Shown here piece by piece: positions 13,661 through 52,515 of a stretch of 64,000 nt of DNA. This DNA is from Stutzerimonas stutzeri TS44 (GTDB lineage: Bacteria; Pseudomonadota; Gammaproteobacteria; Pseudomonadales; Pseudomonadaceae): assembly GCA_000263395.1 (NCBI GenBank), contig AJXE01000002.1:186001-250000 (forward strand). Direction: 5' to 3'. The first letter of the stretch is position 1; each line of letters begins with the position of its first letter. The position numbers and the translations under genes were made by a program. The notes under the pieces were generated by a model, which ran no database searches, had not been told where the DNA came from, and saw nothing but the letters and a program-made list of their open reading frames with translations.

Positions 13661-14602
13661 TTAGACCTTGCTGCGCTCGTAGCGCTTGCGGTCGTTCTCG
13701 TTGAGGTACTTCTTGCGCAGGCGGATCGACTTCGGCGTCACTTCCACCAGCTCGTCGTCGGCGATGAATTCCAGCGCCTGCTCGAGGGTGAACTTGATCG
13801 GCGGCACCAGGGCGATGACTTCGTCCTTGCCGGAGGCGCGCATGTTGTCGAGCTTCTTGCCCTTGGTGGGGTTGAGCACCAGGTCGTTGTCACGGCTGTT
13901 GATGCCGCACAGCTGGCCTTCGTAGATCTCGTCGCCCGGCGCCAGGAACAGCTTGCCGCGCGCCTGCAGGGTTTCCAGCGAGTAGGTCAGCGCGGTACCG
14001 GTGGCCATCGACACCAGTACGCCGTTCTGGCGGTTGGTCACTTCACCGGCCTTGATCGGGCCGTAGTGGCTGAAGGTCGAGGTGAGGATGCCGGTGCCCG
14101 AGGTCAGGGTCAGGAAGTTGTTGCGGAAGCCGATCAGACCGCGCGCCGGGATGGTGTATTCCAGGCGCACGCGGCCCTTGCCGTCGGGGATCATGTTGGT
14201 CAGATCGCCCTTGCGCAGGCCCATCTGCTCCATCACCGGGCCCTGGTGCTGCTCTTCGATATCGATGGCGACGTTCTCGTACGGCTCCTGCTTCTCGCCG
14301 GCCTCGTTCTCGATGATCACCACTTCCGGACGGCCCACGGCCAGTTCGAAGCCTTCACGGCGCATGGTTTCGATCAGTACCGACAGGTGCAGCTCGCCAC
14401 GGCCGGAGACCTTGAACTTCTCCGGGCTGTCGCCCGGCTCGACGCGCAGGGCGACGTTGTGCAGCAGTTCCTTCTCCAGGCGGTCCTTGATGTTGCGGCT
14501 GGTGACGAACTTGCCTTCCTTGCCGGCGAACGGCGAGTCGTTGACTTGGAAGGTCATGCTCACGGTCGACTGGTCGACGGCCAACGATATCGTCACCACC
14601 AT
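13661..14602 (-). pseudogene. 5'-truncated second copy of typA/bipA
   Basis: The 305 C-terminal codons are nearly identical to residues 302-606 of the full-length TypA encoded at 19736-21556 (for example [19 protein letters not shown]). Only a few amino-acid changes are seen (VDQS for VDQP, ENVAID for ENVTID, GEVTNR for GEVSNR, IKFTL for IRFTL). The GTPase domain and domain II are missing. Homology stops abruptly at 14580, after which the sequence is unrelated. An in-frame ATG at 14602 could start a 313-residue product, but it would lack GTP binding. The stop is TAA, against TGA in the intact gene. Confidence 0.9.
13662..14580. repeat. Direct repeat, copy 1 (typA 3' part)
   Basis: About 919 bases match 19737-20655 in the same orientation with a constant offset of 6075 and no indels. 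The first 250 bases show only a few percent mismatch. The match starts at the typA stop codon and ends sharply at 14580/14581. The two copies bracket the norVW-norR block. Confidence 0.9.
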
Positions 14603-19735: not shown

Positions 19736-21556
19736 TCAGACCTTGCTGCGCTCGTAACGCTTGCGGTCGTTCTCGTTGAGGTACTTCTTGCGCAGACGGA
19801 TCGACTTCGGCGTCACTTCCACCAGCTCGTCGTCGGCGATGAATTCCAGCGCCTGCTCGAGGGTGAAGCGGATCGGCGGCACCAGGGCGATGACTTCGTC
19901 CTTGCCGGAAGCACGCATGTTGTCGAGCTTCTTGCCCTTGGTGGGGTTGAGCACCAGGTCGTTGTCACGGCTGTTGATGCCGCACAGCTGGCCTTCGTAG
20001 ATTTCGTCGCCCGGCGCCAGGAACAGCTTGCCGCGTGCCTGCAGGGTTTCCAGCGAGTAGGTCAGCGCGGTACCGGTGGCCATCGAGACCAGCACGCCGT
20101 TCTGGCGGTTGCTCACTTCGCCGGCCTTGATCGGGCCGTAGTGGCTGAAGGTCGAGGTCAGGATACCGGTGCCAGAGGTCAGGGTCAGGAAGTTGTTGCG
20201 GAAGCCGATCAGGCCGCGCGCCGGGATGGTGTACTCCAGGCGCACGCGGCCCTTGCCGTCGGGGATCATGTTGGTCAGATCGCCCTTGCGCAGGCCCATC
20301 TGCTCCATCACCGGACCCTGATGCTGCTCCTCGATGTCGATGGTGACGTTCTCGTACGGTTCCTGCTTCTCGCCGGCCTCGTTCTCGATGATCACCACTT
20401 CCGGACGGCCCACGGCCAGCTCGAAGCCTTCACGGCGCATGGTTTCGATCAGCACAGACAGGTGCAGCTCGCCACGACCGGAGACCTTGAACTTCTCCGG
20501 GCTGTCGCCCGGCTCGACGCGCAGGGCGACGTTGTGCAGCAGCTCCTTCTCCAGACGATCCTTGATGTTGCGGCTGGTGACGAACTTGCCTTCCTTGCCG
20601 GCGAACGGCGAGTCGTTGACCTGGAAGGTCATGCTCACGGTCGGCTGGTCGACGGTCAGCGGCGGCAGCGCCTCGACGGCGTTCTGGTCGCAGAGGGTGT
20701 CGGAGATGTACAGCTCGTCCATGCCGGATACGCAGACGATGTCGCCGGCTTCGGCTTCGGCGACTTCGACGCGCTGCAGACCGGAGTGGCCCATGATCTT
20801 CAGGATGCGGCCGTTGCGACGCTTGCCGTCGGCGCCGATGGCGGTCACCGGGCTGTTGGCCTTGATGGTGCCGCGGGCGATGCGGCCGATGCCGATCACG
20901 CCGAGGAAGCTGTTGTAGTCCAGCTGCGAGATCTGCATCTGGAACGGACCGTCGAGGTCGACCTTGGGTGCCGGAACGTGGTCGATGATGGCCTGGAACA
21001 GCGGGTCCATGTTGTCTTCCAGATTTTCGTGGTCCAGACCGGCGATGCCATTCAGGGCGCTGGCGTAGACGATCGGGAAGTCGAGCTGCTCGTCGGTGGC
21101 GCCGAGGTTGTCGAACAGATCGAAGATCTGGTCGACAACCCAGTCCGGACGAGCGCCCGGACGGTCGATCTTGTTGACCACGACGATCGGACGCAGGCCG
21201 GCCTTGAACGCTTTCTGGGTCACGAAGCGGGTCTGCGGCATGGGGCCGTCCTGGGCGTCGACCACCAGCAGCACGGAGTCGACCATGCTCATCACGCGCT
21301 CGACTTCACCGCCGAAGTCGGCGTGGCCGGGGGTGTCGACGATGTTGATGTTGTAGCCATTCCACTTCAGCGCGGTGTTCTTGGCCAGGATGGTGATGCC
21401 GCGTTCCTTTTCCTGGTCGTTGGAGTCCATTACGCGCTCGTTTTCGGCTTCCTTGCGGTCCAGGGTGCCGGACAGGCGCAGCAGCTTGTCGACGAGGGTG
21501 GTTTTGCCGTGGTCGACGTGGGCGATGATGGCGATGTTGCGTAGATTCTCGATCAC
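19736..21556 (-). CDS. typA: Ribosome-associated GTPase TypA/BipA
   Basis: This 606-residue translational GTPase acts in 50S assembly and stress adaptation. G1 is in [20 protein letters not shown] at residue 5, and other GTPase motifs include [12 protein letters not shown] and [15 protein letters not shown]-like domains II, III and V and the BipA-specific C-terminal domain follow. The start is GTG at 21556, giving the usual family start [11 protein letters not shown]. The last 305 codons are duplicated at 13661-14580. It lies downstream of thiI on the same strand, as in P. aeruginosa. Confidence 0.97.
19737..20655. repeat. Direct repeat, copy 2 (inside intact typA)
   Basis: This is the partner of 13662-14580, in the same orientation and colinear without indels. 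Homology starts at the typA stop codon and ends at 20655, inside the coding sequence. Confidence 0.9.
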
Positions 21557-21574
21557 TGATTCGTTTCTCTGTAG

Positions 21575-21606
21575 AGAGCTTCGAGCTGAGGCTGGAAGCT
21601 TGAAGT
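21575..21606. repeat. AAGCTTGAAG-type intergenic repeat
   Basis: AGAGCTTCGAGCTGAGGCTGG continues into AAGCTTGAAG between thiI and typA. It belongs to a short repeat family found at five other intergenic positions in this window. Confidence 0.6.
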
Positions 21607-21723
21607 AGCCCGGACGAAGGCTGGCTGTCCGAGGTTGTAACGGCACTGCATTGCGATCAGTGCAGGTCGGGAGGGCGGTGGCGGATACTGCCGCCCAGCA
21701 GTCCCGGCTGCTTCACCGAGGCG

Positions 21724-28923: not shown

Positions 28924-28954
28924 GGAGCTGGAAGCTGGAAGCTGGAAGCTGGAA
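28924..28954. repeat. GGAAGCT tandem repeat
   Basis: Four tandem copies of the heptamer GCTGGAA/GGAAGCT lie just after ntrC. They belong to the same dispersed intergenic family as 21575, 31987, 32061, 61796 and 63146-63247. Confidence 0.7.
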
Positions 28955-31986: not shown

Positions 31987-32079
31987 AGCTGGAAGCTGGA
32001 AGCCAGAAGCTGGAAAAGGTGCGGGCACGGCCTGCCCAGCAGTAGCCAGAACTGGCTTTTGGCTTCAAGCTTCAAGCTC
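31987..32079. repeat. Inverted pair of AAGCT-type repeats after hslU
   Basis: The left arm (31987-32016, GGAAGCTGGAAGCCAGAAGC) and the right arm (32061-32079, GGCTTCAAGCTTCAAGC) are complementary over GAAGCCAGAAGC / GCTTTTGGCTTC with one mismatch. They can fold into a hairpin between hslU and the DUF971 gene. The loop contains a short GC-rich dyad. Confidence 0.6.
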
Positions 32080-37567: not shown

Positions 37568-38364
37568 GCAAGCCTTCCCTCGACGATCAGGAAATGCCGC
37601 TGATCGCCCACCTGACCGAACTGCGCAAGCGCCTGCTGCGCTGCGTGATCGCGATACTGGCGCTGTTCGGCGGCCTGTTCTACTTCTCCCAGCAGATCTA
37701 CGCGCTGGTCGCCGCCCCGCTGCGCGCCTACCTGCCCGAAGGCGCGACGATGATCGCCACGGGCGTCGCCTCGCCGTTCCTGACGCCGTTCAAGCTGACC
37801 CTGATGGTCGCGCTGTTCCTCTCGATGCCGATCATCCTGTACCAGATCTGGGGCTTTATCGCCCCGGGGCTGTACAAGCACGAGAAGCGCATCGCCGTGC
37901 CGCTGCTGGTGTCGAGCATCTTCCTGTTCTATGCCGGCATGGCCTTCGCCTATTTCGTGGTGTTCCCGATCATGTTCGGCTTCTTCGCCAGCGTGACGCC
38001 CGAGGGCGTGGCGATGATGACCGACATCGGCCAGTACCTGGATTTCGTCCTCACGCTGTTCTTCGCCTTCGGCGTGGCGTTCGAGATTCCGGTGGCGACC
38101 TTCCTGCTGATCTGGGTCGGCATTGTCGATGTCGCCACCCTGCGCAAGAGCCGCCCCTACGTGATCGTCGGCTGCTTCGCCATCGGCATGGTGCTGACCC
38201 CGCCGGACGTGTTCTCGCAGACCCTGCTGGCGGTGCCGATGTGGCTGCTGTTCGAGGCCGGCGTGCTCTGCGGCAGCATGATCAAGAAGCGCGAGGAGGC
38301 CGGGTTCGAGGACGAGCAATCGCCGTCGGACGCCGACAGTCAGCCGCCCGCTCCGCGCCCGTGA
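37564..38364 (+). CDS. tatC: Tat translocase subunit TatC
   Basis: This 266-residue polytopic protein has six membrane helices. Signature regions are [20 protein letters not shown] near residue 10, [20 protein letters not shown] and [17 protein letters not shown], and [20 protein letters not shown] near 220. It is the receptor for twin-arginine signal peptides. The C-terminus is a charged cytoplasmic tail. The stop overlaps the GTG start of rsmE. Confidence 0.97.
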
Positions 38365-39068
38365 ACCTGCTGCTGCTCGAGCCGGCGGACTTCATCGCCG
38401 AGCGCCGCGTGTTGCTGCGCGACCGGCGCCTGACCCACCTGCAGGACGTGCACCGCGCCGAGCCCGGCGCGACGCTGCGGGTCGGCCTGCTGGACGGCGC
38501 GATGGGGCGCGGCCGGCTGCTGCGCCTGACGAACGACGAGGCCGAACTCGAGGTCGAACTCGACCAGCCGCCGCCGGCGAAACTGCCGCTCACCCTGCTG
38601 CTCGCCCTACCCCGGCCGAAGATGCTCAAGCGTGTGCTGCAGACCGTGGCCAGCATGGGCGTACCGCGGCTGGTGCTGCTCAACAGCTACCGGGTGGAAA
38701 AAAGCTTCTGGCAGACGCCCTTTCTCGAACCGGCGGCGATCCGCGAACAGCTGATCCTCGGCCTGGAGCAGGCCCGCGACACCGTGCTGCCGGACGTCAT
38801 CATCGAGAAACGCTTCAAGCCCTTCGTCGAGGATCGTCTGCCGCAACTGGCTGCCGGCACCCTCGGGCTGGTCGGCCACCCCGGCGCTTATCCGGCCTGC
38901 CCGCGCGCCGTCGCGGGTCCGGTGACGCTCGCCATCGGCCCGGAGGGTGGCTGGATTCCCTACGAAGTGGACAAACTCGCCGAAGCCGGCCTGCAGCCAG
39001 TGCAGCTGGGCGAGCGCATCCTGCGGGTGGAAACAGCGGTCAGCGCGCTGCTGGCGCGGTTGTTCTAA
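38361..39068 (+). CDS. rsmE: 16S rRNA (uracil1498-N3)-methyltransferase RsmE
   Basis: This 235-residue SPOUT methyltransferase has an N-terminal PUA-like domain ([20 protein letters not shown]) and the C-terminal knot ([40 protein letters not shown]). The start is GTG at 38361, overlapping the tatC stop. The last 17 bases of the gene (39050-39066) recur exactly at 40034-40050, on the far side of the DUF4198 gene. The present 3' end may therefore be a replaced one. Confidence 0.95.
39050..39066. repeat. 17-bp direct repeat, copy 1 (end of rsmE)
   Basis: GCTGGCGCGGTTGTTCT covers the last codons of rsmE (LARLF) and the first base of its TAA. It is identical to 40034-40050. Confidence 0.9.
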
Positions 39069-39154
39069 CAGCCTCGGCACCTCCCCGGGCCCGCCCGGGC
39101 GGTTTACACCCTGCGTATAATCCGGCTCCCACTGACTTTTTTGACCGAGTTTTC

Positions 39155-39982
39155 ATGCCCATCAAACAAGCCGGCCTGGCGCTCTTGCTCGCCGCCGCTG
39201 CGGCGGGCGCGCATGCCCATGTGCCATTTCTGAAGCCCAATCAGTTCACCGTCGAACACGACCGATTTCAGGTCGAGTCATCGTTCACCGAGTTTCCCTT
39301 TCAGGCCGATTTCGCGATGGATTCACCGGGGTTCGCTGTGGTGGCACCCGATGGCAGCCTGTCGGCGATTACGCCTTCGGCAAAAACCAAGGCAGCCGTT
39401 TATCTGCAACCTCAACTGGATCGCGAGGGCAGCTACCGCATTACTACCGGCGTGCGCAAAGGGCCGATCTACAAGGCGGTTGAAACCGCTGAGGCCAGGC
39501 TGTATTTCTCGGACGACATCGCCCACCACCAGGGTGTGCCGACCTCCTTGGCCTACTTCAGCCGTGCCGACGTGTACGTAGGCAAAGGTGCGACCGCTTA
39601 TGCGCCCCGCTTTTTGAACGAGGGGGTTGAAATCATCCCGTTGTCGTCGCCTCACCAATTGGTAAAAGGTGTGGCCAGCCTGTTTCAGGTGCTGCGCGAC
39701 GGCCAGCCGGTGGCAGGCGCGCGGGTGATTGTGGTGGCTGACGGTGAGCATTTTCGCAAACACCGCATCGGTGATCTCTACGATGTGGAAAACCGCCGCA
39801 GCAGCAATATCGTGGCCGATGCGCAAGGTAAATTCAGTTTCACGCCGCAATATGCTGGGCTGAATTACCTGCTCGTCACTATTCATCAGAAGATCAACCG
39901 CGATCTCTGGCATAGCCATAATGCTGCGCTGACGCTGGAAGTCAGTCTTGCGGCTGAATCAATAAGGACAGATCTCGATTAG
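39155..39982 (+). CDS. DUF4198 periplasmic protein
   Basis: This 275-residue protein has a Sec signal peptide (LALLLAAAAAGAHA). The DUF4198 opening HVPFLKPNQFTVEHDRFQVE (His-rich at the mature N-terminus) follows, then a second beta domain with SLFQVLRDGQPVAGARVIVV (an Ig-like carboxypeptidase-regulatory style) and a His-containing tail RDLWHSHNAALTLEVSL. Family members are periplasmic and often sit near metal-uptake genes. No partner is present here. Base composition is visibly lower in GC than in the neighbours, and the gene is bracketed by a 17-bp repeat of the rsmE end. TATAAT at 39116 may be its -10. Confidence 0.8.
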   Translation: MPIKQAGLALLLAAAAAGAHAHVPFLKPNQFTVEHDRFQVESSFTEFPFQADFAMDSPGFAVVAPDGSLSAITPSAKTKAAVYLQPQLDREGSYRITTGVRKGPIYKAVETAEARLYFSDDIAHHQGVPTSLAYFSRADVYVGKGATAYAPRFLNEGVEIIPLSSPHQLVKGVASLFQVLRDGQPVAGARVIVVADGEHFRKHRIGDLYDVENRRSSNIVADAQGKFSFTPQYAGLNYLLVTIHQKINRDLWHSHNAALTLEVSLAAESIRTDLD

Positions 39983-40033
39983 CTGTTCAGAGGGCACGAA
40001 AACACGCCCGCTTTATTGCAGAAACCTGACCCG

Positions 40034-40050
40034 GCTGGCGCGGTTGTTCT
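40034..40050. repeat. 17-bp direct repeat, copy 2 (rsmE-like end)
   Basis: This is an identical copy of 39050-39066. Read in the rsmE frame it encodes LARLF followed by TGA at 40050-40052, only three bases from the convergent dtd stop. This suggests it is the original rsmE terminus. Confidence 0.88.
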
Positions 40051-40055
40051 GAGGT

Positions 40056-40493
40056 TCAGCTCTCCAGCAGGAAGGTCACCGGGCCGTCGTTCTGCAGATG
40101 CACCTGCATGTCGGCACCGAAGCGCCCGCAGGCGACCTGCGAATGCTGCCGGCAGGCCTGCGCCAGCAGGTAGTCGTAGAGCGCCTCGCCCTGCGCCGGC
40201 GGCGCCGCGCTGGAAAAGCCCGGGCGCAGGCCGCTGCGGGTGTCGGCGGCGAGGGTGAACTGCGACACCAGCAGCAGGCCGCCACCGACATCCTTCAGCG
40301 AGCGGTTCATACGCCCTTTGGCATCGGAAAAGACACGGTAGTTGAGCAGCTTGTGCAGGAGCTTGTCGGCCCGCGCCTGGTCGTCCTCGCGCTCCACGCC
40401 GATCAGTACCAGCAGGCCCTGATCGATCGCCCCGACCACCTCACCCGCCACCTCCACCCGCGCCTGGCGCACCCGCTGCAGCAGCGCCTTCAT
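40056..40493 (-). CDS. dtd: D-aminoacyl-tRNA deacylase
   Basis: This 145-residue enzyme hydrolyses D-amino acids, and mischarged Gly, from tRNA. The family motifs [20 protein letters not shown] (SQxT) near residue 78 and the C-terminal [11 protein letters not shown] (GPVT, cross-subunit Gly-cisPro) are both present. It is coupled to pip: its ATG overlaps the pip stop by one base. Confidence 0.97.
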
Positions 40494-49682: not shown

Positions 49683-51902
49683 ATGCCGACAGCTGAGCGC
49701 TGGCCGCACAGCAGCAGCGAAATGGGCGAACGGATTCGCCAACACGACTGGCAGGCCAGCCCGCTGGGCCCGCCCGCGAACTGGCCGGCGGCCCTGCGCC
49801 TGCTGCTCGATACGATCCTCGATGCCCCCGGGCCCATGTGCATCCTCTGGGGCGCGGACAACGTACAGCTGTACAACGACGCCCACGCACGGCTGATCGG
49901 CCGGCGCCATCCGGCCGAGTTGGGCAGCCCGGCCTGCGACACCTGGGGCGCCACCTGGGAACTGCTCGAACCGGCCTGCGACAGCGCGCGGCGCGGCGAG
50001 GCGCGCCTGCTGCACAACCGCCACCTGCTGATCGAGCGCCACGACGAACCGGAAGATGCCTGGTTCGACATGGCGCTGAGCCCGATCCGCGACAGCCGGG
50101 GCGAGATCGCCGGCCTGCTGCTGTGCCTCAACGAGACCAGCGAGCGCATGCGCAGCGAGGCCCGGCTATCGCAGACCGCACTGCGCTACAAGCTCAGCGC
50201 CGAGGCCTATCGGCTCAGCGAACAGCGCCTGCAACTGGCGCTGGAAGCCAGCGACCTGATCGGCATCTGGGACTGGGATGTGCAGGCCGGCGCGAGCTGC
50301 GAGCAGGTCGAACTGCTCTGCCGGGTGTCCGAGCAGGACTATCCGAGCCCCCCGCAGAACCTCTCGGTGCAACCGTTCCTCGCGCACATCCACTCCGACG
50401 ACCGCGCCCGCGTATACGCGGCGATGCAGCAGTGCGTCGCCGGCAACGGCACCTTCGCCGAGCGCTACCGGCTGCATGGCGACGACGCGCAGCCGCGTTG
50501 GGCCTACGCGCGCGGGCGCTGCCACTACGACGAAGACGGCCGGGTGCTGCGCTTTCCAGGCGCGGTGATGGACATCAGCCGCCAGCACGCCAGCGAACTG
50601 GCCCTGCGCGAACTCAACGAGACGCTGGAAAGCCGCATCCAGGAGCGCACCCAGGCACTGGCCGAGGTCTACGAACGGCTGCTCAAGGAAATGGCCAGCC
50701 ACGAACAGGCCCAGGACGCCCTACGCCAGGCGCAGAAGATGGAGGCTGTCGGCCAGCTGACCGGCGGCATCGCGCACGACTTCAACAACATGCTCACCGG
50801 CATCATCGGCGGGCTGGACCTGATCCAGCGCTACATCCAGTCCGGCCGTCACGACGAAACCCAGCGCTTCATCGACGCCGCAGTCACCTCTGCCAACCGT
50901 GCCGCGGCGCTCACCCATCGCCTGCTGGCCTTCGCCCGCCGCCAGCCGCTGAACCTCAAGCGGGTCGAACTCAACGCGCTGATCGACTCGATGCACGACC
51001 TGCTGCTGCGCACACTCGGCAGCCATATCCAGATCGAAATGCGGCTGCAGGACGATCTGCGCCCGGCCCACAGCGACGACAACCAGCTGGAAAGCACGCT
51101 GCTCAACCTGGTGATCAACGCCCGCGATGCCATGCCCGACGGCGGCACGCTGCGCATCGGCACCGCCAACGTGGAGCTCGAACGCGCCCGCCAGGTCGGC
51201 GAGCTACCGCCCGGCGCCTACGTCACCCTGACGATCGCCGACAGCGGCTGCGGCATGACGCCCAAGGTCCTGGCCAGCGCTTTCGAGCCGTTCTTCACCA
51301 CCAAGCCCATCGGCCAGGGCACCGGCCTCGGGCTGTCGATGATCTACGGCTTCGCCCGCCAGGCCGGTGGTCATCTGCAGATCACCAGCGAGCCGGGGGC
51401 CGGGACCGAAGTCTGCCTGTACCTGCCGACCCACGCCGAGGCCGCGTCCTGCGCCCCGCCGCCGCGCGCCACGGGCGCCGTGCCGCGTGCCCAGCAGGGC
51501 GAATGCGTGCTGGTGGTCGAGGACGACCCGGCGGTACGCCTGCTGGTGCTCGATGCGCTGGAAATGCTCGGCTATCAGGCACTGGAGGCGGCCGAAGGCA
51601 GTGCGGCGGTAGCGCTCCTGGAGTCGGACCAGCGCATCGACCTGCTGGTCACCGACGTCGGCCTGCCGGGCATGAACGGTCGGCAGTTGGCCGACATCGC
51701 CCGGCAACCGCGTCCGCAGCTGCCGGTGCTGTTCATGACCGGCTATGCCGAGCGGGCCGCCAGCAGCGGATTCCTCGACAGCGGCATGGACATGATCAGC
51801 AAGCCGTTCACCATCGACCAGTTGGCGCAGCAGATCCGCGCCATGCTGGCCGGGGACGATGACCAGCCGGGGCGCACGGCACCATCCCTGAACCAGCCCT
51901 AG
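49683..51902 (+). CDS. Hybrid sensor histidine kinase/response regulator
   Basis: This soluble hybrid kinase of about 739 residues has no membrane span. A PAS-like region (about 20-160; [20 protein letters not shown]) is followed by a PAS/PAC region (about 180-305) and a coiled coil ([20 protein letters not shown]). The HisKA phospho-acceptor is in [14 protein letters not shown] near 363. The HATPase has DSGCGM and [18 protein letters not shown]-terminal receiver has Asp in [13 protein letters not shown] near 657. The start is uncertain: ATG 49683 is the best spaced from AAGGA, while ATG 49671 and GTG 49662 are in frame. The signal is unknown and no cognate regulator adjoins. Confidence 0.88.
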
Positions 51903-52044
51903 ACCGTTGCGCTTGCTGGAAGTTCCTTTTCAAAACAAATACTTGCAAAGCTTGCACAAATTCACACCTTTCATCGGCGAGCGCTTGCGGCATGCCCGTA
52001 TGGCGGGTAAGGATCGCGGCGCCATCCACTCTGGGATTTCGTCA

Positions 52045-52515
52045 ATGAAGTATTCCTCGATTCTGCTGTTGTCCGCGAGCCTGCTCAGCAGCGTCGCGTT
52101 TGCCGGAAGTAATACCGAAGCAGCCGTCGGCGGCGCGCTGGGCGGTGCACTGGGCTCGGTGGTTGGCGGACACCTGGGCGGCTCCACCGGCGCAGCCATC
52201 GGTGCCGGCGTCGGCGGCGCGGCCGGCGGCGCAGTGGGCGCGGACCGGCGCAACCGTACCGAGGCGGCCATCGGCGGCGGCCTGGGCGCGGCCGGCGGCA
52301 ACGTCATCGGCCAGCAGGTCGGCGGCAGCACCGGCGGGCTGATCGGCGCGGCGGTCGGTGGCGGTGCCGGCGGCGCGCTCGGCAACGCCTACGGCGACGA
52401 CGATCATGGCTACCGCGATCGCGATCGGCGCTACTACCGCGATGGCTATCGCGGCGGTCATCGCCACCCCGGCAAGGGCCACTACAAGAAAAAGTGGCAC
52501 AAGCACCATCACTGA
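52045..52515 (+). CDS. Glycine-zipper protein with basic/His-rich tail
   Basis: This 156-residue protein has a Sec signal (MKYSSILLLSASLLSSVAFA). A long glycine-zipper segment of GxxxG repeats (about 25-120; GGALGGALGSVVGGHLGGST) follows, and then a charged tail rich in Arg, Tyr, Lys and His (KGHYKKKWHKHHH). Glycine-zipper proteins associate with membranes or amyloid-like surfaces. The exact function is unknown. The tail could bind metal or nucleic acid (inference). Confidence 0.82.
   Translation: MKYSSILLLSASLLSSVAFAGSNTEAAVGGALGGALGSVVGGHLGGSTGAAIGAGVGGAAGGAVGADRRNRTEAAIGGGLGAAGGNVIGQQVGGSTGGLIGAAVGGGAGGALGNAYGDDDHGYRDRDRRYYRDGYRGGHRHPGKGHYKKKWHKHHH

Follow-up and report, generated by a model that had tools for sequence, protein, structure and literature searches.

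A DUF4198 gene in place of UPF0158 between rsmE and dtd of Stutzerimonas stutzeri TS44, bordered by a 17-bp direct repeat of the rsmE end

Introduction

Illegitimate recombination has been credited with much small-scale genome diversity and, according to the excerpts of the study used here, 10-18% of variable segments are flanked by short direct repeats (PMC2884548). Another described route, homology-facilitated illegitimate recombination (HFIR), operates at very low frequency and, in the available part of the report, is rarer in E. coli conjugation than partial target duplications arising by a single crossover (PMC3240628). In the displacement of T6SS effectors in Vibrio cholerae, as far as the excerpted text goes, a new module likewise shifts resident sequence downstream, in one instance the 3' end of an effector; it is mainly immunity genes that are retained there, whereas at the locus described below 17 bp only are kept (PMC5361080). 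Among the literature matches listed, no fitting case of a single-gene insertion with target duplication was found.

Here, we report on a 64,000-nucleotide stretch of the genome of Stutzerimonas stutzeri TS44 (hereafter the window), in which a DUF4198 gene occupies the place held by UPF0158 in relatives and is bordered by an exact repeat of the rsmE end. At this locus, flanked by two conserved housekeeping genes, the turnover of a single gene can be followed cleanly, one precise scar having been left. It also illustrates that a genome read alone can mislead on ancestral gene order, the lost UPF0158 emerging by comparison only.

The 17-bp direct repeat

The rsmE gene (16S rRNA methyltransferase; 38361..39068, + strand; Pfam PF04452, E 5.3e-31) is intact, ends in a TAA stop at 39066-39068 and is convergent with dtd (D-aminoacyl-tRNA deacylase; 40056..40493, - strand; Pfam PF02580, E 8.6e-55). 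Its last 17 bases, GCTGGCGCGGTTGTTCT, are present as exact copies at 39050-39066 and 40034-40050 on the + strand, offset by 984 bases, and the repeat is exactly 17 bp long, the preceding bases (T/G) and the subsequent bases (A/G) differing between the copies. The second copy runs on into a TGA at 40050-40052, followed by GGT and by the dtd stop (TCA on the + strand, 40056-40058). The recurrence of the rsmE end 984 bases downstream, the TAA in which the gene now ends and the TGA located three bases from the convergent dtd stop (TGA-GGT-TCA) had all been pointed out in an earlier note on this DNA, and they stand.

Within the 4.28-Mb assembly, GCTGGCGCGGTTGTTCT has these two exact copies and no third, and at up to two mismatches it is found at 11 sites (two exact, one with one mismatch and eight with two), versus 4 for a reversed control pattern. 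When two 400-bp flanks were placed at random inside the window with the spacing seen at the locus, 3000 placements yielded 8 repeats of 17 bp, about 6.8 of which are expected from placements spanning the rsmE/dtd pair itself, and the next longest repeat measured 15 bp (14 times). As repeats of 17 bp were obtained only at about the rate of the pair itself, the repeat is not chance. Six of the nine inexact genomic sites were inspected: five sit within stop-to-stop open frames of 253-591 codons, and the sixth (L090) lies in a 151-codon frame, a TAG at the end of the motif belonging to another frame of 19 codons. Among these six, no further gene end clearly carries GCTGGCGCGGTTGTTCT, and the proposal that the same sequence might flank other cargo thus gained no clear example.

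In form, the repeat fits the target-site duplication at a gene end that had been suggested. As for a transposon, an exact direct repeat of 17 bp is present, here without an empty site proving the target and, as for tyrosine-recombinase elements, a direct repeat rebuilds the gene end. Regarding transcription termination, the fold after rsmE is no better than that of shuffled sequences (z 0.39), and a scan for terminators returned three terminator-like matches (shuffle average 1.2), one of them spanning the rsmE end.

The segment between the repeats and its DUF4198 gene

The two copies enclose a segment of 967 bp (39067..40033, + strand) that is absent in G061 and G066, the closest relatives of this genome (~92% DNA identity). 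It carries a DUF4198 gene of 275 aa (39155..39982, + strand), whose product is a putative secreted metal (nickel-like) binding protein and matches Pfam PF10670 with E 1.1e-30 and 107.8 bits versus a gathering score of 34. GC3 is 0.66 in this gene versus 0.94 in tatC and 0.90 in hisI, and GC per 250-base window is 0.50-0.62 inside the segment versus 0.61-0.75 in the flanks shown; a single DUF4198 gene of differing base composition does lie between the repeats, as had been noted. The four other frames in or across the segment (66-198 aa) have no Pfam match at E<=1, and no transposase, integrase or recombinase gene was found among the segment frames, DUF4198 being the sole Pfam match. Terminal inverted repeats are lacking: the ends of the segment score 15, versus a shuffle mean of 12.6 and maximum of 19, a score reached by 16% of 300 shuffles.

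At E<=1e-25, no homologue of the DUF4198 protein was found outside its own genome in the genus (1 of 56 genomes), in a family sample (1 of 398) or in a class sample (1 of 369). A looser search of 58 relatives turned up DUF4198-type matches in 29 other genomes, all of them distant (25-35% identity), and 23 DUF4198 loci with 56-64% identity were found in the named species genomes searched, Lysobacter, Methylophilus, Ottowia and Bacteroidales among them. At two Methylophilus loci, the surrounding frames are presumably cobalamin biosynthesis genes, judging from sequence features. Flank repeats were surveyed at 22 of the 23 loci, one being omitted and gene bounds being approximate, and they measure just 7-13 bp, a length expected by chance. 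Plasmids and phages searched with the DUF4198 protein contained no close relative (best identity 31%), and plasmids searched with the DNA of the locus matched dtd alone. The gene, for which insertion had been considered, looks foreign by its GC3 and by the distribution of its homologues, and we infer that the segment was acquired horizontally.

The protein begins with a putative signal peptide, judged by eye, whose cleavage at AHA|HVPFLKP would yield a mature protein starting with His-Val-Pro. H22 is invariant in the seven aligned sequences (7/7), and it would be the first mature residue only if this by-eye cleavage holds. NikK of Ideonella sakaiensis (PDB 9GCB), which binds nickel, belongs to the same family and, in the excerpted description, has an N-terminal His after its signal peptide, as the product studied here would (PMC12537917). 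Unlike NikK, however, the product studied here has rsmE and dtd, not nickel genes, as gene neighbours, and it matches 9GCB only weakly (E 0.56). It is probably a secreted, NikK-like metal-binding protein.

Replacement of UPF0158 between rsmE and dtd

The alignment to G061 and G066 breaks at 39066 and restarts at 40056. Identity to G066 and G061 amounts to 92.2 and 92.6% in the left flank and to 91.2 and 92.4% in the right one and, as it is similar on both sides of the break, the flanks look vertically inherited. In the genus, 55 of 56 genomes yielded dtd, and 52 of these, the present one included, have both rsmE and dtd in the fetched stretch, G007, G008 and G065 having no rsmE within it. UPF0158 (Pfam PF03682) was found in 51 of the 56 genomes. 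Where rsmE and dtd are both in view, it lies between them in 50 of 51 other genomes, including G061 and G066, where the gap, both stop codons counted, is 649 and 641 bp, respectively. The same search of 56 genomes did not find it in the present genome, G007, G008, G029 and the 73%-complete G067. Since UPF0158 stands between rsmE and dtd in relatives and was not found here, we are dealing with a replacement and not with a plain insertion. The sole other UPF0158-less genus member with rsmE beside dtd, G029, has ~100 bp between the two stops and one rsmE end only, followed by TGA; it represents an independent loss of UPF0158 without DUF4198.

These comparisons bear on the proposal that the second copy is the ancestral rsmE terminus. 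The part concerning the stop codon is supported: rsmE ends in TGA in 44 of the 51 other genomes (TAA in 5, TAG in 2) and, TGA being the commonest stop, copy 2 looks like the older terminus and TAA like the newer one. The part concerning the neighbour of that terminus is not, as UPF0158 stands there in 50 of the 51. Where a single uninterrupted attB would be expected of an integrative element, relatives have one rsmE end and then, in 50 of 51, UPF0158, not dtd. The rsmE-TGA-dtd junction predicted for genomes lacking DUF4198 was not encountered, UPF0158 intervening in 50 of 51 and ~100 bp in G029, and rsmE joined directly to dtd without insert was not found in any genome examined. Such an "empty site" is thus at most an intermediate following the loss of UPF0158.

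None of the 51 other genomes of the genus in which rsmE and dtd are both in view has a second rsmE end with fewer than three mismatches (54 rows in the scan, G061 and G066 having been fetched twice). A 3-mismatch match in G005 beats the best of 20 shuffles by a single mismatch; it lies 9.4 kb into a 15-kb insert, not at its edge, and was taken as chance. Matches with five mismatches inside the gap of L110 and L125, which surpass their shuffles by the same margin, were also taken as chance, and G058 was rejected as a second case, its match being the end of a different frame with four mismatches where shuffles reach three. Two resemblances to relatives were likewise discarded: a candidate remnant of the UPF0158 end just upstream of copy 2 (ACCTGACCCGG here, ACCTGGAACCGG in G061), whose score is reached by 7-8% of 300 simple shuffles, and homology of the left non-coding part to the intergenic region of G061 and G066, which comes down to a single run rich in GC (reached by 0.3% and 3.7% of simple shuffles).

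Other genomes vary at this site. The insert of G005 (L128) lies between rsmE and UPF0158; it contains what we take to be type II secretion-like and PhoX-like frames and, about 180 bp from UPF0158, a 151-bp fragment of the tatA 5' end (~84% identity). Four genomes, G058 (L122), G059 (L096), G065 (L108) and G076 (L124), have ~400 bp extra between UPF0158 and dtd, apparently a small frame that, judged by eye, ends in Leu-Leu-Leu. To judge by this extra sequence, genes may have entered the rsmE-dtd site on more than one occasion.

Gene-end duplication at typA and other features of the window

The parallel that had been drawn with typA, in the same window, does not hold in the form given. Full typA (19736-21646, - strand) is accompanied by a partial second copy of its 3' end (13661-14602, - strand), in which 924 bp (13663-14586) are 96.2% identical to the 3' part of the full gene, versus an exact 17 bp at rsmE. 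The typA copies enclose a nor-like (nitric oxide) block, whose middle gene, norV-like, has rubredoxin, flavodoxin and metallo-beta-lactamase-type domains and is flanked by genes that we assume to be norR- and norW-like. In G061 and G066 this block is located ~3.5 kb from typA, and it therefore appears native in these genomes. The partial typA and the 62 bp behind it jointly match G020, and beyond them lies a GMC oxidoreductase gene, 79% identical, which also follows typA in G020. The typA coding parts do not tell which copy is foreign, as they are equally near G020 (96.2 and 96.3%). The typA case is a long diverged gene-end duplication and not a short target duplication, and no mechanism shared with the rsmE locus is shown.

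Elsewhere in the window, a match to Rfam P34 (Pseudomonas sRNA) is located at 51818-52145 on the - strand (71 bits, gathering 44), and a 29-bp repeat of an AGCTGGA-type unit (28926-28954 and 31987-32015, 93% identical) flanks a 3-kb block containing two frames that are presumably hslV/hslU-like.

How the locus may have arisen

We lean towards a lineage-specific replacement in which deletion of UPF0158 was followed by the illegitimate uptake of a foreign piece of DNA, with duplication of 17 bp of the target. The deletion, the staggered break, the capture of a foreign fragment and the order of the two steps are what we infer. A deletion would have removed UPF0158 and fused the rsmE end (TTC-TGA) with the sequence immediately preceding the dtd stop, the stop codons of rsmE and UPF0158 themselves being perhaps the points of joining, leaving rsmE ...GTTGTTCTGA-GGT-dtd without insert as the intermediate junction. 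Between the UPF0158 and dtd stops there are three bases in G061 (TGA-ACC-TCA) and four in G066, and the three-base spacing behind copy 2 is that of G061; a deletion at the stop codons is hinted at by this spacing and not more, because the 3-bp spacers differ (GGT here, ACC in G061). A break at the rsmE end with a stagger of ~17 nt may then have been repaired with capture of a foreign fragment of ~967 bp, fill-in of the overhangs duplicating the 17 bp, so that the upstream copy would have gained its TAA from the fragment and the downstream copy retained the old TGA. Such a course would not require a dedicated recombinase, and both rsmE and dtd are intact. For end joining, a stagger of 17 nt is long. 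Ku, the key protein of that pathway, has its gene at C34:14085-14636 and occurs in 53 of 56 genus genomes; it is permissive only and does not single out the lineage, since 52 other genus genomes have it. End joining is, in the available text of PMC2884548, almost absent from prokaryotes, a few species excepted.

A fragment from a relative that carried both rsmE and DUF4198 could instead have recombined within rsmE by homology, its other end being joined illegitimately in the rsmE end of the recipient, whose last 17 bp would have been left behind as copy 2. We regard such an HFIR event as a possible, rather doubtful, origin. According to the portion of the report used, its product is a loss of resident DNA similar in size to the foreign gain, on average 1 kb in and 1 kb out (PMC3240628), and here UPF0158 is missing and DUF4198 gained, in one event or more. 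Pseudomonas stutzeri is named in the excerpts as a performing species (PMC3240628, PMC2884548). The TAA of the upstream copy would be a possible donor stop, the downstream TGA being the commonest in the genus. Over its 708 bases, rsmE differs from G061 at 56 positions and from G066 at 53, and four of these differences fall within the last 13 bases in both comparisons (three synonymous ones in the last 12 coding bases, plus the altered stop); this mild cluster, with the changed stop, leaves room for a donor-derived rsmE end. However, the donor would need rsmE adjoining DUF4198, an arrangement found in neither the family (398) nor the class (369) sample, the protein itself occurring in no other of the 398 family genomes. 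The recipient must, moreover, have been UPF0158-less beforehand and, in the excerpt of PMC3240628, the process occurs in P. stutzeri at a frequency 10^6-fold below that of homologous recombination.

An exact repeat leaving the rsmE frame complete at its 3' end, with the cargo alone between its copies, would also be produced by a non-autonomous element inserted in trans by a transposase or a tyrosine recombinase, with the 17 bp as target-site duplication or att core. We hold this to be unlikely: the segment lacks terminal inverted repeats and its four other frames lack Pfam matches, GCTGGCGCGGTTGTTCT is clearly seen at no second boundary among the six inspected near-matches of nine, none of the 22 surveyed DUF4198 loci (of 23) elsewhere has a long flank repeat, and the closest rsmE-end duplication in the 51 other genus genomes has three mismatches, deep in the G005 insert. 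Still more improbable, and by far, is the existence of an unrecognised recombinase, or of a non-autonomous cassette system, by which genes are picked up singly at conserved gene 3' ends, a 17-bp duplication restoring the host gene, with the DUF4198 insert as one product. Just as little credence can be given to copy 2 being a coincidence or an assembly misjoin: the genome is a draft of 78 contigs, but the locus is interior to a contig of 392,765 bp, no exact repeat above 15 bp other than this pair arose in the 3000 random placements, GCTGGCGCGGTTGTTCT has only two exact copies genome-wide, and 17 bp is shorter than the usual assembly word sizes.

Comparison with described systems

The replacement of UPF0158 by a DUF4198 gene has its nearest counterparts in processes that are already described. 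In HFIR of transformable bacteria, Pseudomonas stutzeri included, gain of foreign DNA is likewise accompanied by loss of resident DNA of similar length, as far as the excerpts extend (PMC3240628, PMC2884548); a homologous anchor on the foreign side could not be demonstrated here. In the dimorphic loci, or small variable segments, of PMC2884548, a segment is swapped between conserved sequences as at the rsmE-dtd site, and the direct repeats, in the part of that study available, are mostly shorter than 30 bp, to be set beside the 17 bp found here. The loci of that study are intraspecific, from E. coli, S. aureus and S. pyogenes, and span 20-500 bp, whereas a whole gene is concerned here and the comparison is made between species (PMC2884548, in excerpt). 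The mechanism is already known in outline, and what stands between rsmE and dtd has the look of a common, isolated scar left by DNA capture and not of a novel mobile element.
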